From Eubacteriales bacterium (GTDB lineage Bacteria > Bacillota > Clostridia > Lachnospirales > Lachnospiraceae), in contig JAUNDV010000001.1 of assembly GCA_030525875.1 (NCBI GenBank), positions 62,001 through 126,000 on the forward strand: a stretch of 64,000 nucleotides of DNA. Direction: 5' to 3'. Shown piece after piece: positions 27,880 to 40,251 of the stretch. The notes under the pieces are model-generated. The model did no database searches. It was given only the letters and a program-made list of their open reading frames with translations, and was not told the origin of the DNA. The position numbers and the translations under genes were made by a program. How positions within the stretch are numbered: position 1 is the first letter of the stretch; each line of letters begins with the position of its first letter.

Positions 27880-29213
27880 ACAGAATAAAAATAGAAAAAA
27901 TATTAGGAGAAGAATATCTTGTAATTTACTTAGATGAAAATGAGTATAATTATGAAGAACAAATGATAAGAAAGCTTAATAACAGCAATATTTTAAATTG
28001 TAAGCTTGACTATCAGGAAAACAAAAAAAGGCTTTGCTATAACATCAGCGGGATGATTCCGTTAAGCAGATATCTGGAGCTTAATCCACTTAACCTTAAT
28101 GATATTAAAAAATATATTATTCAGCTTAAAAATAGTATAGATTTACTAGAGAGTTATATGCTTAGTGTAGAAAATATATATTTAGGCAGAGATGGAATTT
28201 ATGCAGATAAAGAAACGGGCATGATGAAGTTATGCATATTGCCAAGTAACAAATGTAGTATTTATAAAACAGAATTTATAGAGCTTTTGTTGAGAAATGT
28301 GAATATAGAAGATACAGAGGCAATTCATTTTGCTTTTGAACTATTTAAAATCTCATTGGAAGATGATTTTGAAATAAAAAAAATATTCAAACTGCTTGAG
28401 ACAAAGAATAAAGGCAGATATATAGAAAATAAAAGCATAGTTGATAATGATGAGCTTATAGATATTTTACAAAATAAAAATGAAATAAATTATAGGGGTG
28501 ATAAAGATAAGAATATAATAAATTATAAAGTTACCAGGGATAAAGAGATAACGGATCACAGAACTAATACAAGTAATTCAGTATCAGGTGAAGAGAAAGA
28601 TATTAGAAAGAGTGAGATAAGAACCACAAAAAAGGAAAAATTAAAACTAAAAAGTTTAAAAGAAAGAAAATCGAATAAAAATACAAAGGCGATGGATGTA
28701 AATAGCGTCGTTGTTAAAATATTTGTTTCTTTATCAGTATTATCAGTACTTCTCTTTATTCTGGTTATGCTAAAAGGAAGAGCTGTTTTAAACAGAATAT
28801 TGATTCCTTATTTTGTCCTTTCAATAGCCGTAAGTATTTATCACTTATCAGGATATATTTTTGAGAAAATCAAAAATATAAAATCTGAGAAAAATAAGAA
28901 GATAAATGAATCAGATGAAAAAAATTGCAAGCTTATTCCTAGAAATATTCAAGATGATATTATAGAGATTTCTTACTATCCTTTTGTTATAGGAAGCAGA
29001 GAAGGGATCACAGACTATACCTTGCAAGGGAAGAATATTGAAGCAGTTCATTTGAGGATAGAAGATACAGAGGAGGGGCTTATGTTTACTGATATGAATA
29101 CAGAAAAAGGTACACAGATTGGTTCAGAAAGAATAGCAGGGGGACAGAGTAAAATCGTAAAATCTGATACAGAAATAGTGATAGGAGATCATAAATATAT
29201 ATTACAAAATTAA
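27876..29213 (+). CDS. DUF6382 / FHA domain membrane protein of the Tad locus
   Basis: A 445-residue protein. The N-terminal 170 residues match the DUF6382 type seen next to clostridial Tad genes. A Lys/Asn-rich linker follows, then two TM helices (about 275-295 and 305-325), and a C-terminal FHA-like domain of about 90 residues. FHA domains bind phosphothreonine; here 'IGSREG' and 'AVHLRIEDT' correspond to the ligand loops, though the second is degenerate. Both soluble domains should face the cytoplasm, suggesting a phosphorylation-dependent contact with the assembly machine. It is the last gene of the locus. Confidence 0.8.
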   Translation: MNRIKIEKILGEEYLVIYLDENEYNYEEQMIRKLNNSNILNCKLDYQENKKRLCYNISGMIPLSRYLELNPLNLNDIKKYIIQLKNSIDLLESYMLSVENIYLGRDGIYADKETGMMKLCILPSNKCSIYKTEFIELLLRNVNIEDTEAIHFAFELFKISLEDDFEIKKIFKLLETKNKGRYIENKSIVDNDELIDILQNKNEINYRGDKDKNIINYKVTRDKEITDHRTNTSNSVSGEEKDIRKSEIRTTKKEKLKLKSLKERKSNKNTKAMDVNSVVVKIFVSLSVLSVLLFILVMLKGRAVLNRILIPYFVLSIAVSIYHLSGYIFEKIKNIKSEKNKKINESDEKNCKLIPRNIQDDIIEISYYPFVIGSREGITDYTLQGKNIEAVHLRIEDTEEGLMFTDMNTEKGTQIGSERIAGGQSKIVKSDTEIVIGDHKYILQN

Positions 29214-29225
29214 GTAAAATATATA

Positions 29226-29266
29226 GAGGGCATCACTGTTTCATCTGATGATGTCGTGATACCCTC
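29226..29266. terminator. Bidirectional hairpin between converging FHA and kbl genes
   Basis: GAGGGCATCAC (29226-29236) pairs with GTGATACCCTC (29256-29266) with one mismatch. It sits midway between convergent stops. There is no long U-tract on either side. Confidence 0.6.
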
Positions 29267-29277
29267 TCAAGGAAGTC

Positions 29278-30477
29278 TTAATTAAGACCCATTTCATTTC
29301 TAACTTCTATGAAGCATTTTACAATAAAATCAATATCCTCTTTGGTATGGCTGGCACATACCTGAGTACGGATTCTTGCTTTTCCCTTAGGAACAACAGG
29401 GAAGGAGAAGGCTACGACATATACGCCTTTAGCCATCATACGTTTAGCGAATTCAGCAGCAGTTTTTTCATCGTAAAGCATAACAGGAACGCAAGGATGA
29501 GTTCCAGGTATAATATCAAAACCATTTTCAACTAAGAGTTTACGATAGTAAGCTGTTACTTCCTCAAGGTGGTCTCTAAGAGCGGTACTTTCACTTAACA
29601 TATCCAAGAGCTCAATACTTGCTCCTGCTATGGCTGGTGCTAAGGAATTAGAGAACAGATAAGGACGGCTTCTCTGGCGGAGAAGATCTACGATTTCTTT
29701 TCTTGCAGCTGTATATCCGCCTGATGCACCTCCAAGTGCCTTGCCGAGTGTACCTGTAATGATGTCAACTCTGCCTTCAACTCCATTATATTCAGCTGTT
29801 CCACGTCCATGTGCACCTACGAATCCTACAGCATGACTGTCATCTACCATTACAAGCGCATTGTACTTATCAGCCAGATCACATACTCCCTTAAGATTGC
29901 AGATTATACCATCCATAGAGAAAACACCATCAGTTGCGATGAGCTTTATTCTAGCACCATTTGCATCTGCTTCTTTAAGCTTTTCTTCAAGATCTTCCAT
30001 GCAATTGTTTTTATATCTGTATCTCATGGCCTTGCATAAACGTATGCCATCTATGATGGATGCATGATTGAGTTCGTCACTGATAACGGCATCCTGTTCA
30101 GTAAGGAGTGTTTCGAAGAGACCACCGTTTGCATCAAAACAAGAAGAATAAAGAATTGTATCATCCATTCCAAGAAAGTCTGATATTTTCTTTTCAAGCT
30201 GTTTATGAATATCCTGTGTTCCACAGATGAAACGTACAGAAGCTACACCGTATCCTCTTTCATCATAGGTTCTTTTAGCTGCTTCTATAAGTCTTTTGTT
30301 GTTTCCAAGACCAAGGTAATTATTAGCGCACATATTGAGAACTTCTCTGCCATCTTCAAGGATGACCTTGGAGTCTTGTGCAGAGGCTATAGGTGCTTCA
30401 CCTTTGAAAAGACCTGAAGCTTTAATGTCTTCAACTTCCTTTGTATATATACTTAAAATATCATTTTTGCGTGCCAT
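29278..30477 (-). CDS. kbl: Glycine C-acetyltransferase (2-amino-3-ketobutyrate CoA ligase)
   Basis: Cleaves 2-amino-3-ketobutyrate with CoA to glycine and acetyl-CoA, the second step of threonine catabolism. It is a PLP alpha-oxoamine synthase of 399 residues with Schiff-base Lys K246 in 'GTLGKALGG' and cofactor residues 'DDSHAVGF' near 212-219. The length equals that of E. coli Kbl. It lies 29 bp downstream of tdh on the same strand with its own AAAGGA ribosome binding site, so the two enzymes of the pathway form an operon. Confidence 0.95.
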
Positions 30478-30506
30478 TTTAAATATTTCCTTTCTAATTA
30501 TAAAAT

Positions 30507-31577
30507 TTACTGAGGCTGATACTCTAGCTTATCTAGGTCTTCCCAGTTAAGGATAACCTTTCCAGATTGTCCTGAAATCATGGCATCAAAGCCAGCCTTA
30601 TAGTCCTTTATATTTAATCTGTGAGTTATTATATCTGAAATATCAAGACCAGCCTGAAGCATAGTAGTCATCTTATACCAGGTGTCCCAAACTTTACGTC
30701 CATAGATACCACGGATGTTTAATCCGTTCCAGATAACTGTTTCCCAGTTAATCTGTGCATCTGGTCTCTGAAGTCCCAGAAGGGCTATCTTTCCGCCATG
30801 CTTCATATTGTTTATCATATCGTTGAAGCCGGCAGCAGCACCTGACATTTCCATTCCAACATCAAAGCCTTCGGTCATGCCGATTTCTTTCATTACATCC
30901 TCGAGTTTCTCGTTTGCAAGATTTACTGTTCTGGTCGCTCCAAGCTTCTTTGCCAGATCAAGACGATATTGGTTAAAATCAGTTATGACAACATGTCTTG
31001 CTCCGGAAAATCTTGCGATTGCAGCTGCCATTATTCCTATAGGACCAGCACCCGTGATAAGTACATCTTCACCAAGAACCTCATATGAGAGAGCTGTATG
31101 GGTTGCATTTCCAAATGGATCAAAGATAGCATACATTTCCTCAGGTATTTCAGGCTTGGTTGGCCATACATTTTCTGCTGGAATTACAAGATATTCTGCA
31201 AATGCTCCGTCACGGTTAACACCAACACCCTTGGCATCCTTGCAGTTTTCCTTGTGACCTTCAAGGCAGTTTCTGCATTTTCCGCAGACGATATGACCTT
31301 CTCCGGAAACAAGGTCTCCAATTTTATATCCTTTGACACCTGTACCAACTTCGGCTATTTCTCCAACATATTCATGTCCTGCTGTCTGCCCTACAGCTAT
31401 GGTATGCTGTGCCCATTCATTCCATTGATAGATATGAACGTCAGTTCCACAAATTGCAGTTTTATGAATTTTTATCTTTACATCATTTGTTCCAACCTCG
31501 GGTATAGGAACTCTTTTAAGTGCTAATCCGGGAGCTGCTTCTTCCTTGACGAGTGCCCACATTTTATTATCGTTCAT
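30507..31577 (-). CDS. tdh: L-threonine 3-dehydrogenase
   Basis: A zinc-dependent medium-chain dehydrogenase that oxidises L-threonine to 2-amino-3-ketobutyrate with NAD+. The 356 residues show catalytic zinc ligand C43 and H68/E69 (GHEY), four structural-zinc cysteines C98, C101, C104 and C112, and an NAD-binding '[10 protein letters not shown]' near 177-186. The TDH-specific '[13 protein letters not shown]' motif is present, separating it from sorbitol dehydrogenases. AGGAG is 6 nt before the ATG. Confidence 0.94.
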
Positions 31578-31617
31578 GCTGTTCTCCTATTAAAAATATT
31601 TAGTGAGTTATACCTAA

Positions 31618-31645
31618 ATAATATCGTATTATAGGAAAATTTCAA
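31618..31645 (-). promoter_or_regulatory. Promoter of tdh-kbl
   Basis: Reading on the minus strand, TTGAAA (31645-31640), 16-bp spacer, TATTAT (31623-31618), about 40 bp before the tdh start. Confidence 0.6.
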
Positions 31646-31687
31646 GCAAAAATTTCCGCCAAAGACGAACAAAAAAAGAAAAATGTG

Positions 31688-31716
31688 CATGTCCTAAAGA
31701 CAAGGACGTATGTTTT
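31688..31716 (+). other. Hairpin with T-run upstream of the cysteine desulfidase gene
   Basis: Near CATGTCCT (31689-31696), GTCCT pairs with AGGAC (31703-31707), with a partly paired extension ACGTATG; five Ts follow at 31712-31716. It resembles a small terminator or attenuator reading rightward, but no transcript start to its left is evident. It may also be part of the divergent regulatory region. Confidence 0.3.
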
Positions 31717-31746
31717 TCTGGGAAGGACAAAACTATGCTTATTATG

Positions 31747-31830
31747 TTATAACTTTTCTTTATAGACGATTAAAATAAATGAATTATGCAGAATGCACTA
31801 AAGATATTATATTAGATATATATTACAGAG
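31747..31830. promoter_or_regulatory. Conserved promoter block, copy 1 (putative LysR target)
   Basis: Contains TTATAACTTTT (31747-31757), then 27 bp later AAATGAATTATGCA and the dyad TATGCA-gaa-TGCACT (31785-31799), then an AT-rich TATTATATT stretch. The same elements at the same spacing recur at 35160-35245, in front of the UroD-family gene and next to the LysR gene. This one lies 43-126 bp upstream of the cysteine desulfidase gene. Confidence 0.6.
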
Positions 31831-31872
31831 CGGATTGTATAAAACATTTGTTTTGAAAAGGAGAATTATAAA

Positions 31873-33141
31873 ATGACACAGTATATTTATGATAATTGTA
31901 TTTCTATTCTTAAAGAGGAACTTGTACCTGCAATGGGATGTACAGAGCCAATAGCAATAGCTTATTGTGCAGCAAAGCTTAGGGAAACTCTTGGAGAAGA
32001 GCCTGATAAGGTTACTGTATTAGTGTCTGGAAATATTTTAAAGAATGTTAAATCAGTAGTAGTACCAAATACAGGTGGAAGAAAGGGAATAAAGACAGCT
32101 GTGGCAGCTGGTATCGTAGCAGGAGAAGCGGATAAGGAATTAGAGGTTATAGCAAGCGTACCAGAGGCAAAGCTCCCAGAGATAGAGAAGTATGTAAATA
32201 ACTGTGAAATGGAAGTAAAGTGCCTTGATACACCATGGATGCTTGATATTTTCTTAACTGGATATAAGGGAGAGCATAAGGCAGCTGTAAGAATTTCAAA
32301 CGGACATAAGAACATTGTGTATATAGAAAAGGACGGAGAGGTACTCTTTGAGAAGGAAGCTGAGAATTCAATGGGTGACAGAAAGTCTGATCTTAGTGTA
32401 CTCAGTCTTGACAATATATATGAGTTTGCAGAGACAGTTGATCTTGAGCTTGTAGTGGATGTATTAAAAAGACAGTTAGATTACAATACAGCTATTTCTG
32501 CTGAGGGCTTCAATGGAAATTGGGGTGCTAACATAGGAAAGCTTATGATGGAGATAGGAGAAGGCAGAATAGAGCTTGAAGCAGCTGCATGTGCAGCGGC
32601 AGGAAGCGATGCAAGAATGAGCGGATGTGAGATGCCTGTAATAATCCTTTCAGGTTCGGGAAATCAGGGAATGACTGCTTCACTGCCTGTATATAGATAT
32701 GCAAAGGAGCTTGGTGTAAGCGAAGATAAGATGTATAGAGCTCTTATTATAAGCGACCTTGTTACAGTATTCCAGAAGAGAGGAATAGGGCTCCTTTCAG
32801 CATACTGTGGAGCTGTAAGTGCAGGCGTTGGTGCAGGTGCAGGAATTGCTTATCTTAACGGTGCAGATAAGGAAACAATAGGACATACTATTGAAAATGC
32901 AGTTGCAATTCTTTCAGGAACAATCTGTGATGGAGCAAAGCCTTCATGTGCAGCGAAGATTGCTTCAGCCGTTAATGCAGGAATTCTTGGACACAAGATG
33001 GCAAAGAGTGGAAATAACTTTGGTGCAGGCGAAGGAATTATTGGAAATGATATAGAGGATACAGTTGAAAATGTAGGAATCCTTGCAGCAAAGGGAATGA
33101 AGGAAACAGACAGAGTTATATTGGATATTATGACAAAATAA
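31873..33141 (+). CDS. L-cysteine desulfidase family protein (CyuA/YhaM, UPF0597)
   Basis: Probably breaks L-cysteine down to pyruvate, ammonia and sulfide with a 4Fe-4S cluster; the family also contains serine-dehydratase-like members. The 422 residues include the signature 'PAMGCTEPIAIAY' with cluster-type C23, and conserved cysteines in 'SAYCGAVSAG', 'GTICDG' and 'KPSCAAK' towards the C-terminus. Gly/Ala-rich stretches are typical. AAAGGAG precedes the ATG. Its promoter block is shared with the UroD-like gene. A tRNA-Cys gene is nearby at 36491. Confidence 0.88.
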   Translation: MTQYIYDNCISILKEELVPAMGCTEPIAIAYCAAKLRETLGEEPDKVTVLVSGNILKNVKSVVVPNTGGRKGIKTAVAAGIVAGEADKELEVIASVPEAKLPEIEKYVNNCEMEVKCLDTPWMLDIFLTGYKGEHKAAVRISNGHKNIVYIEKDGEVLFEKEAENSMGDRKSDLSVLSLDNIYEFAETVDLELVVDVLKRQLDYNTAISAEGFNGNWGANIGKLMMEIGEGRIELEAAACAAAGSDARMSGCEMPVIILSGSGNQGMTASLPVYRYAKELGVSEDKMYRALIISDLVTVFQKRGIGLLSAYCGAVSAGVGAGAGIAYLNGADKETIGHTIENAVAILSGTICDGAKPSCAAKIASAVNAGILGHKMAKSGNNFGAGEGIIGNDIEDTVENVGILAAKGMKETDRVILDIMTK

Positions 33142-33224
33142 TTTAATCATAAAATTAACAAGGCTGATCATTAATGAATAAAGCCCCCTAACAGAATTTT
33201 GATTATGATTCTGTATTTATAGAA

Positions 33225-33279
33225 GAGAACCCGGCTATGATAATTCTTAATTAAGAATATATCTAAAAGCCGGGTTCTC
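33225..33279. terminator. Bidirectional terminator-like structure with nested palindrome
   Basis: A perfect 12-bp GC-rich stem GAGAACCCGGCT (33225-33236)/AGCCGGGTTCTC (33268-33279) encloses a perfect 16-nt palindrome ATTCTTAATTAAGAAT (33243-33258). It lies between convergent genes. The U-tracts are poor, so folding strength must do the work. Confidence 0.65.
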
Positions 33280-33352
33280 TTGTGATAAAAAAGAAGTGAT
33301 ATTAAATTAAATATATAGGCTGATTTATATAGGTTAATTATATATAGACTAA

Positions 33353-34111
33353 TTAAATACTTATTCCACCGTCTACCATGCAAATGCTTCCAGTTGTCCA
33401 AAGCGATTTATCAGATAAGAAAAATTCAATTGCTGGAGCAAGATCATTTTTAGCATCTCCTATTCTTCCAAGAGGATAGTTAACGACCTTATCCTCTGAC
33501 CATTTGTCATAGTCTTCCTGAGAGTAATTTCCATTTGCGACATATATATTTGTATAAACAGCTCCAGGATTTATACTGTTAACACGTATATTGTATTTTC
33601 CGAGTTCCTTTGCCATATACTTTGTACAGCTGTCAAGACCAGCCTTACTTGCACAGTAGGCGATTGAGCCACCAGGTCTTTCAGATGCCATTGAAGATAT
33701 ATTCACTATGGAAGCGTTGGTTCCCTTCTTTAGGAGAGGAAGCATGGCTTTTGTAAGAATGAAAACTCCAGTAAGATTTATATCAATGGCTTTTTTCCAG
33801 TCCTCAAGAGACTGATCTTCAATTCCGCCAAATTTAATTATTCCGGCAGCGTTAACAAGCCCGTCAAGATGTCCACATTTTTCATTTATTGCAGAATAAA
33901 TACGTTTTGCATCTTCAACAGAGCTTATATCTCCTTGCAGAAATTCTACATTTTTAGAATGAAGCTTTTTCTTCGCGCTTTCTATAGAGGCTAAGCTTCT
34001 TGAAACAGAAAATACAAAGTAATTTCCGCTTTCGATAAGGTATTCGATTGTTCCAAGCCCTATGCCACTTGTTCCACCACTAACTAAAACGATTTTTTTA
34101 TTTGTATCCAT
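33353..34111 (-). CDS. SDR-family oxidoreductase
   Basis: A classical short-chain dehydrogenase of 252 residues with the NAD(P)-binding motif 'SGGTSGIGLG' (10-19), NAAG (90-93) and catalytic Ser plus 'YCASK' (Tyr and Lys near 152-156). The substrate is unknown; the C-terminus 'TGSICMVDGGISI' is typical of FabG-like and sugar or secondary-alcohol SDRs. It follows the LysR gene by 77 bp on the same strand and may be co-transcribed. The purine-rich ribosome binding site AGGGAAGG is 18 nt before the ATG, farther than usual. Confidence 0.88.
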   Translation of the reverse strand: MDTNKKIVLVSGGTSGIGLGTIEYLIESGNYFVFSVSRSLASIESAKKKLHSKNVEFLQGDISSVEDAKRIYSAINEKCGHLDGLVNAAGIIKFGGIEDQSLEDWKKAIDINLTGVFILTKAMLPLLKKGTNASIVNISSMASERPGGSIAYCASKAGLDSCTKYMAKELGKYNIRVNSINPGAVYTNIYVANGNYSQEDYDKWSEDKVVNYPLGRIGDAKNDLAPAIEFFLSDKSLWTTGSICMVDGGISI

Positions 34112-34188
34112 AATAATTGAGCGATATAGCCTTCCCTTTCATAAAATTAATTTTTAAATATCAAATATTATAACCTGAATATCAAAAC

Positions 34189-35142
34189 TTAAATATTGAT
34201 ATTGTGTTCTTCAAGAAAATTGTCTGCCTGCTGGAGCAGAGTATCTATAACTGTATTTAATACAGGATGTGCAGCTGCCGCTTTATCAGAATAAAAAAGG
34301 CAAAGACTTCCTTTAGTTTTCTGGTCTTTAAAAGGTATGGCAACAAGCTGGTTATCATGATTTTTCTGGTAACGTTCCAAGGCAGGATAATATGATACAG
34401 CATATGCATTATTATGCATTGCAACAGAATCAATTACATTTTGGAGTGTATCTACTTCTATTACATGCTTTTTACCAACATAGTTAATAATATTTGTCAT
34501 AACAGATTCCAAAAAAGCACCTTCTGAACGGACATCTCCAGCGGATACTGGAATCATAAGATTCATGTCCTTTAGTGCATCAAGCGTAATGCTTTTCATT
34601 TTTGCAAGAGGTGAAGCTTTGTTAACAAGACACATATATTCGCCATCCATCAGCTTGATCGGAGGTGTTCCTTGTATATTGGTATAATTTGCCAGCATTT
34701 TATTGTCACATACATCAATTATAAGATTAGGTTCAGATATATCAGAGCTTATATACTGTTCAGGATTAGGTACTGAACGGAAGTTAATCTCCAAATCTGG
34801 GAACAGTCCCTTTATCTGATATATTGCTACCGGAACTATAAAGTCGGAAAATGATACATAGCCGTAAATTTTTATACTTGGAAGTTCAGGTGTATTATGT
34901 ATGTTCAGCCAGCTGTCATATATTTCAACAATCTTTTTGGCATCCTGAAGTATGCGCTTACCATCTTCTGTAAGAGCGATACCAGTTTTCTTTCTAACAA
35001 ACAAAACGAAGCCCAATTCCTCTTCCATTGCATTTAACGCTTTGGTAAGGCAAGGCTGGGTAATAAATAGCTTTTGTGAAGCTTCGTTTATGGATTTTGA
35101 CTCGGATAAGGTAATAAGATATTTTAAAGTGTTGATTTTCAT
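34189..35142 (-). CDS. LysR-family transcriptional regulator
   Basis: A 317-residue LTTR with an N-terminal winged HTH (1-60, 'SINEASQKLFITQPCLTKALNAME') and a periplasmic-binding-protein-like effector domain from about 90. It is divergent from the UroD-family gene, the usual arrangement for an LTTR and its target. The intervening region holds the TATGCA-aaa-TGCATA dyad. The same block occurs before the cysteine desulfidase gene, so the effector may be a thiol or sulfur-related amino acid. That effector is inference. Confidence 0.9.
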   Translation of the reverse strand: MKINTLKYLITLSESKSINEASQKLFITQPCLTKALNAMEEELGFVLFVRKKTGIALTEDGKRILQDAKKIVEIYDSWLNIHNTPELPSIKIYGYVSFSDFIVPVAIYQIKGLFPDLEINFRSVPNPEQYISSDISEPNLIIDVCDNKMLANYTNIQGTPPIKLMDGEYMCLVNKASPLAKMKSITLDALKDMNLMIPVSAGDVRSEGAFLESVMTNIINYVGKKHVIEVDTLQNVIDSVAMHNNAYAVSYYPALERYQKNHDNQLVAIPFKDQKTKGSLCLFYSDKAAAAHPVLNTVIDTLLQQADNFLEEHNINI

Positions 35143-35159
35143 GTAATGATCACCTTTGC

Positions 35160-35245
35160 TTATAACTTTTTATTATTACTATGAAAATATAAATGAATTA
35201 TGCAAAATGCATAAAATATATTATATTTAATATATCAAATATATG
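35160..35245. promoter_or_regulatory. Conserved promoter block, copy 2 (putative LysR target)
   Basis: TTATAACTTTT (35160-35170), then AAATGAATTATGCA and the perfect dyad TATGCA-aaa-TGCATA (35199-35213), then an AT-rich TATTATATT stretch. Spacing between the first element and the dyad is 39 bp, against 38 bp in the copy at 31747. It lies in the intergenic region between the divergent LysR and UroD-family genes. Confidence 0.65.
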
Positions 35246-35338
35246 AGTTTTTGTAAATAATTTGAAGGACATATCCAATATTATAAGAAAAATATAGTTT
35301 CAAATATAAAAATGAAAAATGATTTGAAAGGAGCAGCT

Positions 35339-36334
35339 ATGGAAAGAAGAGAACTTGTACAGAATGTATTTAATGGAAAAGCAGGAGACAGAGTTCCTAT
35401 TGGATTTTGGTGGCATTTCGTAGAGGGATCACGTCATGCAGACGGATTCTATGATAATGACATTGCAGACAGAGTAATTGAAGGTCACAAGGCAATGCTT
35501 AAGAAATTTCAGCCAGATCTTTTAAAGATAATGTCAGACGGATTTTTCTGCCACCCATCAATTATTGAGAATGATGTAAGAAGAGTAGAGGATCTTGGAA
35601 AGATACAGCATATTACAAAGGATCATCCATGGGTTAAGAAGCAGATCAGAGTTATCAATGAAGTACTTGCAGAGACCAATGGAGAAGTGGTTGCAATGTA
35701 TAATATGTTTAGTGCGGTTCAGCAGCTCAGACTCTATATCGAATACATTTTAAATGATAGAGCAGCATATCGTGCACTTATGATCGACCATACAGCAGAA
35801 ACAATGGAAGCCCTCAAAATAGTTGAAGAAGATACAAATATGCTTCTTGATGAGCTTAAGAAAAATACAAAGATCGATGGAATTTATTATAGTGTCCAGA
35901 TGCTTCAGCATGAAGAGGCTGACGAGGAATTCCATAATAAGTGGATCGTTCCAAGTGATCTTGTAACATTAAAGAAAATTAATGAGAACTGGGAATATAA
36001 TATGCTTCATATTTGTGGATATGAGCATTATCATAACAATGTACGTTTCTATACCCAGTATCCATGCAAGGCATATAACTGGGCAACTCATACAGATAAG
36101 ATTGATATGAAGGAAGGAAAGGAAATATTTGAAGGTCACTGCGTATGTGGTGGATTCGATAATAATGCAGGAACACTGATAGAGACAGGAACAATAGAAG
36201 AACTCAAAGCATACACAAAGGAAATAATTGAGCATGCGGGCAGAGAAGGTCTTATAATTGGTGCTGACTGTACAATTCCTCCAACAATAGATGTAGCAAG
36301 ACTTGAAGCTATAAGAGATGCAGGAAGATTATAA
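35339..36334 (+). CDS. UroD/MtaA-family (corrinoid or thiol) methyltransferase-like protein
   Basis: A 331-residue protein of the uroporphyrinogen decarboxylase superfamily. It carries the zinc site of MtaA/CmuA methyltransferases instead of the UroD substrate arginines: H224-x-C226 ('LHICG') and C311 ('GADCTIPP'), 85 residues apart. Such enzymes move methyl groups between a corrinoid protein and a thiol. No corrinoid protein is encoded next to it, so the partner must lie elsewhere or the reaction differs. I choose ATG 35339 because AAAGGAG (35327-35333) sits 5 nt upstream; an earlier in-frame ATG at 35312 has none. Confidence 0.8.
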   Translation: MERRELVQNVFNGKAGDRVPIGFWWHFVEGSRHADGFYDNDIADRVIEGHKAMLKKFQPDLLKIMSDGFFCHPSIIENDVRRVEDLGKIQHITKDHPWVKKQIRVINEVLAETNGEVVAMYNMFSAVQQLRLYIEYILNDRAAYRALMIDHTAETMEALKIVEEDTNMLLDELKKNTKIDGIYYSVQMLQHEEADEEFHNKWIVPSDLVTLKKINENWEYNMLHICGYEHYHNNVRFYTQYPCKAYNWATHTDKIDMKEGKEIFEGHCVCGGFDNNAGTLIETGTIEELKAYTKEIIEHAGREGLIIGADCTIPPTIDVARLEAIRDAGRL

Positions 36335-36366
36335 TTAATAGCTTAATCATATATCATAACCAATTT

Positions 36367-36406
36367 CTGGCTGCTGCCTGTTTTATCAAGGTGGCAGCCA
36401 ATTTTA
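36367..36406 (+). terminator. Terminator after the UroD-family gene
   Basis: TGGCTGC (36368-36374) pairs with GCAGCCA (36394-36400), with partial inner pairing, followed by ATTTTAT. Confidence 0.7.
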
Positions 36407-36438
36407 TAAGATATAGAAGATATTTGCATCAAAAAGGC

Positions 36439-36467
36439 TTGACACACAAATATATATATATTATACT
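36439..36467 (+). promoter_or_regulatory. Promoter of tRNA-Cys
   Basis: Consensus TTGACA (36439-36444), 17-bp spacer, TATACT (36462-36467). Confidence 0.8.
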
Positions 36468-36490
36468 AAACAAGCTTAATTAAATAGCAA

Positions 36491-36561
36491 GGCGCAGTAG
36501 CCAAGCGGTAAGGCGTAGGTCTGCAACACCTTGATCACCGGTTCAAATCCGGTCTGCGCCT
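36491..36561 (+). tRNA. tRNA-Cys (anticodon GCA)
   Basis: A 71-nt cloverleaf with acceptor GGCGCAG/CTGCGCC, anticodon loop CTGCAAC (GCA) and T-arm CCGG/CCGG with TTCAAAT. The discriminator is U, an identity element of tRNA-Cys. CCA is not encoded. Confidence 0.95.
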
Positions 36562-36566
36562 CTATA

Positions 36567-36598
36567 AACCTCGAGAGAATATTCTTTCGGGGTTTTTT
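36567..36598 (+). terminator. Terminator of tRNA-Cys
   Basis: An AACCTCGAGAGAA/TTCTTTCGGGGTT hairpin with G-U pairs, followed by six Ts. Confidence 0.85.
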
Positions 36599-36687
36599 GT
36601 TATGTAAATTTTTGATAATGCATATTATGCACTTTTTCCTAATACACAAACAATTCTATGTGCTATAACTACAGTAAAGGTAGGGCA

Positions 36688-37722
36688 ATGAAAATGAAAA
36701 TAAATAAGATGAAAAATACAGTATTGTTAATATTTGCTTTTATATCTGCTGCATGTTTATGCGGATGCGGAAAAACTCAGTATGCAGATGGTGAAAATAT
36801 ACTTGAGGAGCTTCCAGAAGATAAAAAACTGGTTGTATATACCTCCCACAAAAAAGAAACCTATGAACCTGTGATTTCAGAGTTTGAAGAAAGAACAGGG
36901 ATATGGGTAGATGTTCATACTGGAGGAACGATGGAGCTTATGGAGAAAATAAGTTCTTCAGAAAATGAAGAGGCAGACATTATGTTTGGAGGCGGCGTAG
37001 AAAGCTACGAGGCCTTTAAGGCTTGTTTTGAGGCTTATAGCTGTAAGGAAAAGGATAAGATACAAGAAGAATTTAAAAACACTGAAAATATATGGACAGC
37101 ATTTACAGAGCTGCCAATTGTATTTATATATAATAAAAAGCTTGTATCTGAGGATATGGCTCCTAGAAGCTGGAATGAAATTTTAGAATTAAAGTGGACA
37201 GGTAAGATAGCCTTTGCAGATCCTCTTAATTCTGGAAGCAGCTGTACTGCACTTGAGACAATGCTTAAGGTTACAAATGATAGTGACATAATAGAGAAGT
37301 TCTACAATCAGCTTGCAGGAAGACAAAGTCCGGGATCAGGATATGTAATAGATGAGGTTTCAAAGGGCAGGGCACTTATAGGTATAACGCTTGAAGAAAC
37401 TGCACTTAAGGCTATAGATGCAGGAAAAGACATAGCAATAGTCTATCCTGAGGATGGAACCTCTGCCATACCTGACGGATGTGCAATTGTTAAAAATGCC
37501 CTTCATAAGGAAAATGCAAAACTGTTTATAGACTTTATTATAAGCAGCGATGTACAGAGACTAGCCTCGGAAAATTTATACAGAAGGTCAGTTAGACGAG
37601 ATATTGTAGATGAAAAAGAGAGTATAGATATTATTAATTTTAATATAAAAGAAGCAGTTTACGAGCAGAAGCAGATATTAGAGCTATGGAAAAAGCTTCG
37701 TACTGGAAGGGAGAAGAAGTGA
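36688..37722 (+). CDS. Binding lipoprotein of the Fe3+/AfuA type, likely co-sensor
   Basis: An extracellular solute-binding lipoprotein of 344 residues. The signal peptide ends in a lipobox near residues 20-27 (alternatives AAC or CGC). The mature part is a class II periplasmic-binding fold ('LVVYTSHKKETYEPVISEFE' at its start) related to ferric and sugar-phosphate binders. It is encoded directly before a YesM/YesN two-component pair, with its stop overlapping the kinase start. This resembles PgtC in the phosphoglycerate PgtCBA system, where the binding protein presents ligand to the kinase. I prefer ATG 36688 (AAAGG 7 nt upstream) over 36658. Confidence 0.82.
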   Translation: MKMKINKMKNTVLLIFAFISAACLCGCGKTQYADGENILEELPEDKKLVVYTSHKKETYEPVISEFEERTGIWVDVHTGGTMELMEKISSSENEEADIMFGGGVESYEAFKACFEAYSCKEKDKIQEEFKNTENIWTAFTELPIVFIYNKKLVSEDMAPRSWNEILELKWTGKIAFADPLNSGSSCTALETMLKVTNDSDIIEKFYNQLAGRQSPGSGYVIDEVSKGRALIGITLEETALKAIDAGKDIAIVYPEDGTSAIPDGCAIVKNALHKENAKLFIDFIISSDVQRLASENLYRRSVRRDIVDEKESIDIINFNIKEAVYEQKQILELWKKLRTGREKK

Positions 37723-39464
37723 AATCAGATAAGATTAAGTATTCATTTAGAAAAAAGCTTCTCCTTTGTTTTGTAATTTCATCTGTAATACCCATTGTGC
37801 TTTCCTGCATTTTCCTTATACAAAGTATGAAATTTAAGGTTCAGCTTGACTATACCAGAAGAAATAATGAAATGGTGGCTGTTATTGAAGATAAATTTTC
37901 AGAAACTTTTGCTGAAATCGAGGATATAGCGGGACAGTTTGCGGAAACAGCTTATATAAAAGAAGCGATGGAAAATAGCATCGTAGATAATAAGTATGTA
38001 TACAATAAACTGTACGATTTAAGTTCTGGACTAAGAGATAAAGCTATTTTCAGTATATATTCGGTAGAAGGAAAATGCCTTTATACTACAGGTAATACAG
38101 ATGAAGCAAAAAAACTTCCGAATTACTGCGGTATATTAAAAACCGCAAATACACATAGAGATAGCATGGTGGTAAGGAAGGAGCAGCACTATAGGTCTGA
38201 CGAAACTATCCTCTTGAGATCAGTAAAGGCCATTATAAATGAGCAGGACGAAATAGTTGGATATTTTTCTGCTGCCATGGGAGAAAGAGAATTAGAAAAT
38301 ATATTGAAGGGATGTTATAGCAGTAAGGACAAGCTTTATATTTTCAATGAATTTCTGGAACCTGTATATATGGCAGGGGTGCAGGATGAAGAAAATGTTA
38401 TAACGGAATTAAGGCATAGATATTTTACTGAAAATGATATCAATGGGCCACGTATGAATAAGACTGTAAGTATTGATGCCATAGAGGACTATGGCCTTTA
38501 TGTTTTGCTTGTAAGACCTGAAATATTTACAGGGGATATTACAAAGAGCATGTATATTGTTCTTGTTATTCTTGCTGTATTAAGCTTTATACTGTGTTTT
38601 GTGATAAGCAGCAAAATGAGCAAGAGGCTGTATGAACCGGTTGATATTTTAAACAAGGGAATGAGCAGAGTAAGAGAAGGTGATTTTGATGTAAGGCTGG
38701 TACCGGTAAGCGATGATGAACTAGGACAGCTTACAGATAATTTTAATGATATGGCACAGGATATAAAATCCTACATGGAGGAGCAGGTAAGGCAGCAGAA
38801 AAAGCTTAATGAAACAGAAACTGCCATGATGCAGGCTCAGCTTAATCCGCATTTCCTATACAATACGCTGGATACCATAAAATGGGCAGGTAAGGCCAAT
38901 GGATCAAACGAGGTTGCGATTCTTTCAACGAGACTTGCTAAAATCCTCAGGGTAAGCATATCAGAGGATAAGTTTATAAAACTGGAGGATGAGCTGAAGC
39001 TGGTTGAATATTATGCAGAGATTCAGGAAATCAGGTTTGAAGGACATTTTGTTATAGAGGACAGGATACCAGAGGAAATGAAGTCCTGTTATGTTCCAAA
39101 GCTTGTAATCCAGCCTATAGTCGAAAATTCTGTAATACATGGCTTTAAGGACAGTAACGGTGGAAAAGTTATTATTTCAGGAAGTATAGTTAAGGAAGAT
39201 TGCAAGGAAAAAATGCTTATAAATATTACTGATGATGGATGCGGAATCGATGAAGAGGTAATTGACAGACTTAACGATAAAAACAGCGAAAATATGAGGG
39301 GACACATAGGCTTCTATAATGTAAAGAATATTATAAACTTGAACTATGGAACTGAATATGGTGTTGTAATAGGAAAAAATGAGCCACAAGGAACAAGGGT
39401 TACAATAAGTATGCCAGTAGTAAGGGGAGGTGAAGACCATGTTCAGACTGATAGTAGCAGATGA
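37719..39464 (+). CDS. YesM-type sensor histidine kinase
   Basis: A 581-residue kinase with TM1 (about 13-33), an extracytoplasmic sensing domain of about 240 residues, TM2 (about 277-298), a HAMP domain, a His_kinase domain with acceptor His about 378 in 'LNPHFLYNTLD', and a HATPase domain with 'DDGCGI'. The start is GTG 37719, preceded by AAGGGAG and overlapping the previous stop as GTGA. The longer frame from 37686 overlaps the binding protein by 37 nt. It probably senses the ligand-loaded lipoprotein encoded upstream. Confidence 0.9.
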   Translation: MKSDKIKYSFRKKLLLCFVISSVIPIVLSCIFLIQSMKFKVQLDYTRRNNEMVAVIEDKFSETFAEIEDIAGQFAETAYIKEAMENSIVDNKYVYNKLYDLSSGLRDKAIFSIYSVEGKCLYTTGNTDEAKKLPNYCGILKTANTHRDSMVVRKEQHYRSDETILLRSVKAIINEQDEIVGYFSAAMGERELENILKGCYSSKDKLYIFNEFLEPVYMAGVQDEENVITELRHRYFTENDINGPRMNKTVSIDAIEDYGLYVLLVRPEIFTGDITKSMYIVLVILAVLSFILCFVISSKMSKRLYEPVDILNKGMSRVREGDFDVRLVPVSDDELGQLTDNFNDMAQDIKSYMEEQVRQQKKLNETETAMMQAQLNPHFLYNTLDTIKWAGKANGSNEVAILSTRLAKILRVSISEDKFIKLEDELKLVEYYAEIQEIRFEGHFVIEDRIPEEMKSCYVPKLVIQPIVENSVIHGFKDSNGGKVIISGSIVKEDCKEKMLINITDDGCGIDEEVIDRLNDKNSENMRGHIGFYNVKNIINLNYGTEYGVVIGKNEPQGTRVTISMPVVRGGEDHVQTDSSR

Positions 39465-40251
39465 TGAAAAATTTGTTCGTCAAGGAATAATTCGTGAAAC
39501 AGACTGGAAGGCACTTAATTGTGAGGTTGTTGCAGAAGCTGTTGACGGTCTTGATGCACTTGAAAAGATAAGAAAGTTTAAACCTGATTTTGCTATATGT
39601 GATATAAGGATGCCAAAGCTTAGTGGAATAGAAATGCTGAGGATACTTAGAAATGAAAATAATAAGATTCCTGTTATATTTCTTACCGCATATAATGAAT
39701 TTGACTATGCCGTTTCAGCATTAAAGCTATATGCATCTGATTATATTTTAAAGCCATTTGATGACGGGGAGCTGGAAGAGGCTGTCAAAAAGCTGGAGCT
39801 TAAGCTTGCTGAAAATGAGAAAGAACAAGGCAGGAGTGATAAAGAAAATAACAAACAAATACTTGGCTATGAATATCTTAAGCCAGAGCTTGATAAGTAC
39901 AAGGGCGCCTATACCAGAGAGGCCATAAAGTACATAATAGAACATGTAAATGAAAATGGAATCAGTATTAAACTTATAGCAGACAGTATAGGAATTAGCG
40001 AAGGACATCTGAGCCATATATTTAAAAAGGAAACGGGAGAAACTCTTGCTTCATATATTACTAAATGTAAGATAGATGCAGCAAAGCAAATGCTTGAGGA
40101 TTGCAGATACAAGGTATATGAGGTTGCAGAGCTGGTTGGATATAAGGATATATCTTATTTTTCAAGTACTTTTAAGAAACTTACAGGTATGAGCCCTATT
40201 GAATATCAGGAAAGGACGGTACAGGATAAAAGTACGGAATCATACAATTAA
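39439..40251 (+). CDS. YesN/AraC-type response regulator
   Basis: A 270-residue regulator: receiver domain with phospho-acceptor D55 ('FAICDIRMPK'), a linker, and a C-terminal AraC-type double HTH (about 165-265, 'IADSIGISEGHLSHIFKKE', 'VAELVGYKDISYFSSTFKK'). ATG 39439 follows GGAGG by 8 nt and lies inside the 3' end of the kinase gene, so the pair is coupled. The likely target is the transport operon that begins 148 bp downstream. Confidence 0.92.
   Translation: MFRLIVADDEKFVRQGIIRETDWKALNCEVVAEAVDGLDALEKIRKFKPDFAICDIRMPKLSGIEMLRILRNENNKIPVIFLTAYNEFDYAVSALKLYASDYILKPFDDGELEEAVKKLELKLAENEKEQGRSDKENNKQILGYEYLKPELDKYKGAYTREAIKYIIEHVNENGISIKLIADSIGISEGHLSHIFKKETGETLASYITKCKIDAAKQMLEDCRYKVYEVAELVGYKDISYFSSTFKKLTGMSPIEYQERTVQDKSTESYN

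Follow-up and report, generated by a model that had tools for sequence, protein, structure and literature searches.

A promoter block present twice points to a LysR-type regulator shared by cysteine desulfidase and UroD-family genes in a probable Lachnospiraceae bacterium

The desulfidase-LysR-UroD locus and its two-copy block

We analysed a 64,000-nucleotide stretch of DNA from a probable Lachnospiraceae bacterium (GenBank assembly GCA_030525875.1, contig JAUNDV010000001.1, positions 62,001 to 126,000), hereafter the window, in which a promoter block occurs twice. Copy A (31747..31822, plus strand) is the promoter block of a cysteine desulfidase gene, and copy B (35160..35236, plus strand) lies in the intergenic region between a gene for a LysR-type regulator (lysR) and a gene of the UroD superfamily. 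A preliminary description of the window had proposed that both regions answer to one regulator, most simply this LysR protein, and that cysteine breakdown, a thiol-type methyltransferase and an SDR-family enzyme are linked in one response.

The elements named in that description were found in both copies and in the same order: TTATAACTTTT starts at 31747 and 35160, TATGCA-N3-TGCA at 31785 and 35199 (+38 and +39), and TATTATATT at 31805 and 35219. Local alignment of the two copies gave a score of 81 and needed just two gaps, of 1 and 2 bp, compared with maxima of 42 in 2,000 dinucleotide shuffles of one side and 46 in 2,000 shuffles of both sides; the runner-up place for the block within the window scored 43. 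We also searched the bacterium's own genome (1.83 Mb, 36 contigs, 97.75% complete). BLAST with the lysR-UroD intergenic region returned the desulfidase promoter as the sole strong second match (82%, E 1.7e-13), the next match having an E value of 9.8e-4, and the genome-wide search that had been suggested as a check located the composite pattern at exactly two places. A dispersed repeat family was ruled out, as a third comparable copy was not found in this genome. The block has a sharp left edge, the sequence before TTATAAC being 25-30% identical; identity reaches 88% in a box described below, falls to 60% in the spacer after it, returns to 87% from TTATGCA to the -10 hexamer and is 47-60% beyond. 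These results indicate that the similarity is well above chance and confined to a promoter-sized segment.

A small, recent and neutral duplication of a promoter segment could leave 82% identity over about 75 bp with gaps of 1 and 2 bp, and would imply no shared regulation. However, identity is higher in the box and from -35 to -10 than in the spacer and ends at the box, and similar units with the same spacing occur at a second locus of this genome (C10) and in a distant bacterium (L130). We regard neutral duplication as extremely unlikely.

The gene behind copy A (31873..33141, plus strand) encodes 422 amino acids matching PF03313 (199.6 bits) and aligning at E 1.9e-27 with 9he0, an L-cysteine desulfidase of solved structure. 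MmCyuA is described with cluster cysteines Cys287, Cys329 and Cys336 and a highly conserved Glu25 (available text of PMC12647591), and Cys312, Cys352, Cys359 and Glu25 of the window protein align with these residues in a numbering derived by hand, in which the chain is offset by 2. By sequence, the product is a CyuA/CdsB-type cysteine desulfidase, predicted to release H2S and pyruvate. Divergent from it lie tdh and kbl (29278-31577; threonine dehydrogenase and glycine C-acetyltransferase), both above the NCBIfam cut-offs.

The lysR gene (34189..35142, minus strand) encodes 317 amino acids. Its N-terminal winged helix-turn-helix domain matches PF00126 (E 3.5e-15; 56.1 bits, cut-off 26.6), and its putative C-terminal substrate-binding domain reaches 21.6 bits with PF03466, below the cut-off of 28. 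Behind lysR and on the same strand follows the gene for the SDR-family oxidoreductase (33353..34111, minus strand; PF13561/PF00106).

The UroD-superfamily gene (35339..36334, plus strand) encodes 331 amino acids from an ATG behind GGAG, in an open reading frame (ORF) that opens at 35312, and matches PF01208 with 31.5 bits (cut-off 23.9). The three residues of its His224-x-Cys226...Cys311 motif do not vary across an alignment of 24 sequences, this protein among them. A His-Cys-Cys set of zinc ligands marks S-methyltransferases of the UroD superfamily, as far as an excerpt of PMC10418091 describes them, and the three residues may likewise bind zinc here. Judged by this motif, the protein is probably an S-type methyl or alkyl transferase, which fits the thiol-type label given to it in the preliminary description. 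Membership in the MtaA/CmuA family was rejected (TIGR01463, 17.6 bits against a cut-off of 235.4), and no solved structure matching the protein by sequence was found. Directly downstream of this gene lies a tRNA-Cys (GCA) gene (36491-36562); its place beside a cysteine desulfidase locus is suggestive but probably a coincidence.

Predicted promoter anatomy of the block

We next considered how the block is built. Inside the first element of both copies begins an ATAA-N7-TTAT box that had been overlooked: ATAACTTTTCTTTAT in copy A (31749..31763, plus strand), which includes T-N11-A and is centred at -64 from the predicted transcription start, and ATAACTTTTTATTAT in copy B (35162..35176, plus strand), centred at -65 and 19 bp from the lysR start codon. 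According to the available text of PMC4834489, the usual primary site of a LysR-type regulator is a T-N11-A palindrome at -65 that overlaps the promoter of the divergent regulator gene. At 35162-35176 the divergent target does carry such a palindrome near -65 from its predicted start. Five promoters share this geometry, with a box centre at -64 or -65 from the predicted start.

Downstream of the box, promoters and starts were assigned by consensus only. In copy A a weak -35 hexamer, TATGCA, is predicted at 31785..31790 and a -10 hexamer, TATATT, at 31808..31813, with a start near 31820; the counterparts in copy B are at 35199..35204 and 35222..35227, with a start near 35234 (all plus strand). 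With TATGCA taken as the -35, the spacer to TATATT is 17 bp in both copies. TATGCA agrees with TTGACA at three of six positions, and such a poor -35 is expected of an activator-dependent promoter. A candidate lysR promoter, TTTACA-17-TATATT (35229..35257, minus strand), faces the UroD promoter; it is a consensus match only, in a region where matches of this type number 19 compared with 21.3 in shuffles. Among riboswitches, T-boxes and leader RNAs sought in 28000-40000, none was found, only a tRNA exceeding the Rfam thresholds.

The TGCA dyad claimed for both copies proved perfect in copy B (TTATGCA-N3-TGCATAA, 35198..35214, plus strand, centred about -28 from the predicted start), but in copy A it is imperfect, with two mismatches (TTATGCA-N3-TGCACTA, 31784..31800, plus strand, overlapping the -35). 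A different regulator could act here, a repressor whose operator would be TTATGCA-N3-TGCATAA, between -35 and -10, and the upstream similarity would be a by-product of recent promoter copying; the perfect dyad at 35198-35214 and its overlap with the -35 region in both copies are what such an operator would look like. Outside the two copies, however, the dyad is not kept, whereas TTATAAC...TTATRCA is, with few changes, in L130 and C10, and a row of related genes beside a GntR gene in a congener (see below) displays no such unit. We consider this explanation very unlikely.

Taken alone, ATAA-N7-TTAT is too common, with six occurrences in the window. TATGCA-N3-TGCA has 16 matches in the genome, three of them within the block. 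As further targets the other 13 found no support: 12 overlap mechanically called ORFs of at least 100 amino acids, some at the edge only, and the 13th lies in a hairpin outside ORFs. One of these sites (C30) overlaps only the edge of such an ORF and reads as a short same-strand intergenic gap, beside translations resembling what we take to be selenium/cysteine-lyase genes; it was set aside, as the composite pattern, which includes the upstream box, did not match it.

Apart from the block, the region before tdh contains a perfect palindrome, ATAATA-TCG-TATTAT (31618-31632), which is also an ATAA-N7-TTAT box. Some 40 bp separate it from the start codon of tdh, and it overlaps a predicted tdh -10. 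Either it serves the threonine-breakdown genes tdh-kbl as an additional operator or it could be a chance occurrence.

Related loci and recurrence of the unit

The same gene set was found elsewhere in other arrangements. In an Acidaminococcus metagenome-assembled genome (L130), an SDR-LysR pair (69% and 50% identical to the window proteins) is divergent from a putative transporter gene, a UroD gene (74%) and a desulfidase gene (36%). In a congener (genome G024, locus L070), genes for a desulfidase (51%), a UroD protein, a transporter and an SDR protein (62%) stand in a row on one strand, adjoining a divergent GntR gene; no LysR match occurs within that 16-kb stretch. These two arrangements indicate that the gene set named in the preliminary description is a real unit. 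In the window the SDR gene is linked to the others by its place behind lysR and has no block of its own. Two further loci belong to the window's own genome. C25 has a paralogous divergent pair, LysR2 and UroD2, with genes for a transporter-like protein and an iron alcohol dehydrogenase behind it; at C10 a third UroD gene (UroD3) precedes the same kind of transporter-like gene, and no LysR match was found in its 14-kb stretch.

The two-element unit of the window recurs at several of these loci. In the LysR/transporter intergenic region of L130, TTATAACCTTTT and TTATACA stand exactly 38 bp apart and match 16 of 18 letters, a score reached by none of 20,000 shuffles; TATACT follows 17 bp after TATACA. 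Before UroD3 we found TTATTACTTTT-27-TTATACA. Scores out of 18 were 18 for each window site, 16 for C10, 16 for L130 and 15 for the LysR2/UroD2 site at C25, the last being reached by 7 of 5,000 shuffles. The unit was not seen in the congener row beside the GntR gene. As a control we scored the regions upstream of UroD and desulfidase homologues, 152 in all, many of them from related genomes or from the same organism twice; C10 reached 16, C25 15 and the other 150 at most 13. The site is thus tied to this LysR subfamily rather than to UroD genes in general.

A mismatch-tolerant scan of the genome at 38-bp spacing gave 36 matches with up to three mismatches. The window UroD promoter alone had none and C10 UroD3 alone had one, both sites being intergenic and correctly oriented. 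Two sites had two mismatches, one lying inside an ORF and the other having no gene start within 250 bp. The remainder had three; 30 of the 36 matches became loci and were examined, and the three-mismatch sites were set aside as noise given the count in the reversed control reported below.

Several points weigh against reading the block as a promoter unit commanded by this LysR. The reversed control gave 41 matches against the 36, both summed over up to three mismatches, the control being available as a total and not by mismatch class. The A/G choice in the scan pattern was made after the sites had been seen; with a strict G, by inspection of the listed matches, C10 has two mismatches and is still the sole other match with fewer than three. 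The tolerant scan covered the 38-bp spacing alone. Outside the window the box halves are imperfect (right half TTTG in L130, left half ATTA at C10, ATAG and TCAT at C25), and conservation of the TGCA dyad beyond the two window copies does not extend to its second half. The footprint rests on few sites, with a single orthologous locus outside this genome. Finally, the genome holds LysR2, a second LysR of the same subfamily.

This last point raises a rival explanation, in which the block is a LysR site as supposed and the actor is LysR2, or both regulators, so that the window and C25 genes are cross-regulated. LysR2 is 42% identical to the window LysR and alike in the N-terminal DNA-binding stretch, which contains the residues that read DNA; next to UroD2, from which its gene diverges, stands a weaker version of the unit (15/18) with the same geometry; and the C10 target, with no LysR match in its 14 kb, must be served in trans by either protein. 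Against this, the window sites, C10 and L130 (18, 18, 16 and 16) outscore the C25 site (15), and the window LysR shares more identity with the L130 LysR (50%) than with LysR2 (42%). We judge control by LysR2, alone or jointly, unlikely.

As far as our searches go, the LysR subfamily is rarely found. Among 391 genomes of the bacterium's own class (E 1e-30) a match occurred in one, its own genome, and among 300 genomes of the class of L130 (E 1e-35) in one, L130's own. Among 397 genomes of the family (E 1e-25) six matched, the five besides the own genome at 91-99 bits compared with 629. Among the matches listed, with at most 5 or 7 candidates scored per genome, no close LysR match appeared outside the own and L130 genomes in these three sets. 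No ortholog was found among plasmids or viral contigs. A peptide-pattern scan of genomic contigs for the LysR pair also gave none, which is weak evidence, as the same patterns missed the L130 LysR present there.

A proposed regulon and a possible pathway

The LysR-type anatomy of the block, the position of one site between the divergent lysR and UroD genes and the same spacing before the L130 operon support the single shared regulator of the preliminary description. We conclude that the block is, with good probability, a LysR-regulated promoter unit present twice and commanded by the LysR at 34189-35142. The protein would bind the ATAA-N7-TTAT box centred near -65 and contact the region down to -35; with inducer, it would recruit RNA polymerase to the poor -35 (TATGCA), the 17-bp spacer and the good -10 (TATATT). 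From its site between the two divergent genes, the protein would activate the UroD-family gene to the right and repress its own lysR-SDR transcript. Control would extend to the cysteine desulfidase through the second copy, and to the UroD-transporter pair at C10 through a third copy that is less exact. A substrate or a product of the pathway, such as cysteine, an S-substituted cysteine or a thiol, would probably act as inducer.

The most economical membership of the regulon would comprise an autoregulated lysR-SDR pair, UroD1, the desulfidase via a copied cassette and, in all probability, the UroD3-transporter pair; LysR2 would regulate UroD2, its transporter and the alcohol dehydrogenase, as a paralogous regulator or an overlapping one. 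Such a regulon is well supported by sequence and is probably wider than first described, as it takes in UroD3-transporter. If so, H2S-releasing cysteine breakdown would be tied to a UroD-family enzyme in a testable regulon of a probable Lachnospiraceae bacterium, and the inducer of LysR would reveal the substrate of that enzyme.

The window desulfidase is nearer to that of the congener (51%) than to that of L130 (36%), whereas the UroD, LysR and SDR proteins are close to those of L130. These affinities, from few sequences, suggest that a resident desulfidase gene was captured by promoter duplication, which would be a compact case of a gene joining a regulon by the copying of a promoter-operator unit about 75 bp long. 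Regulation of this kind is ordinary, and interest attaches to the pathway and to the copied promoter.

Known LysR systems resemble the proposed one in their sites. CcpC, which acts on citB in Bacillus and Listeria, is of LysR type and uses an ATAA/TTAT dyad centred at -66 with a second contact near -27, in the available text of PMC8514465. CcpC targets the tricarboxylic acid cycle, whereas the window genes are sulfur-related, and identity of the window LysR with CcpC was ruled out (NCBIfam NF058504, 46.5 bits against a cut-off of 400). CynR of Escherichia coli is likewise divergent from its target cynTSX and has ATAA-n7-TTAT inverted repeats, the first centred at -66, as an excerpt of PMC5002191 describes. 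It differs in serving cyanate genes and in having three repeats, compared with one clear box here, and the window LysR reaches 44.2 bits with the NCBIfam CynR model (cut-off 277).

The genes themselves recall two other systems. CyuR, the regulator of cyuPA, is of Lrp type. In E. coli, the available text of PMC9040844 describes cyuPA as encoding an inducible cysteine desulfidase together with its dedicated transporter, next to an operon for threonine/serine fermentation. The window is alike in having tdh-kbl beside the desulfidase gene, but it differs in its LysR-type regulator and in the added UroD-family and SDR proteins; the transporter at the related loci matched no model above its cut-off. 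Type 1 mlp clusters, in the part of the Kountz and Balskus preprint available (PMC10418091), also contain proteins of the UroD superfamily; these carry His-Cys-Cys zinc ligands and are interpreted as S- or Se-methyltransferases. The present locus was rejected as such a cluster, which would combine two or more Mlps with a corrinoid protein and Ram: among the seven proteins scanned (29278-37722) there is no corrinoid protein, Ram or second mlp gene.

A pathway can be sketched more tentatively. As substrate we guess at an S-substituted cysteine, since a thiol-type enzyme and a desulfidase occur together. In an undescribed anaerobic pathway run by the rarely found LysR subfamily, this compound would enter through a new type of transporter and lose a methyl or larger alkyl group to a corrinoid-free UroD-family zinc enzyme; the cysteine would pass to the desulfidase, which joined by way of the copied cassette, and the carbon fragment to SDR or alcohol dehydrogenases. 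We hold this proposal as a whole to be doubtful. A limited literature search returned no title on the desulfidase-UroD-LysR-SDR gene set. The transporter would belong to a membrane-protein-like family of about 390-450 amino acids whose genes adjoin UroD genes at L039 (4684-5868), L069 (4318-5574), L070 (6185-7366) and L130 (5610-6953). No Pfam model matches the members at L039 and L070, and those of L039, L069 and L130 have no NCBIfam match above the cut-off; the family is a candidate new transporter type.

Most UroD relatives have no desulfidase gene nearby. One was present within the stretch of 5 of 80 UroD loci on genomic contigs (L130 included; two were only partial, near the edge), and the counts are not independent, as the 80 include many closely related streptococci. 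In the family, a desulfidase gene stood near UroD at 3 of 20 loci. For tdh or kbl the count was none in either set.

UroD-family genes were also seen in another setting. At L151, L153, L158, L137, L141 and L152 they are often paired and lie beside genes for DhaK/DhaL-type kinases and a LivK-type ABC transporter, DhaK being present in 11 of the 80 loci. In a limited literature search no title concerned a UroD-DhaK/DhaL cluster. A complete desulfidase is also present in the clusters of L151 and L153, and the UroD-DhaK/DhaL-LivK arrangement may represent an undescribed catabolic cluster.

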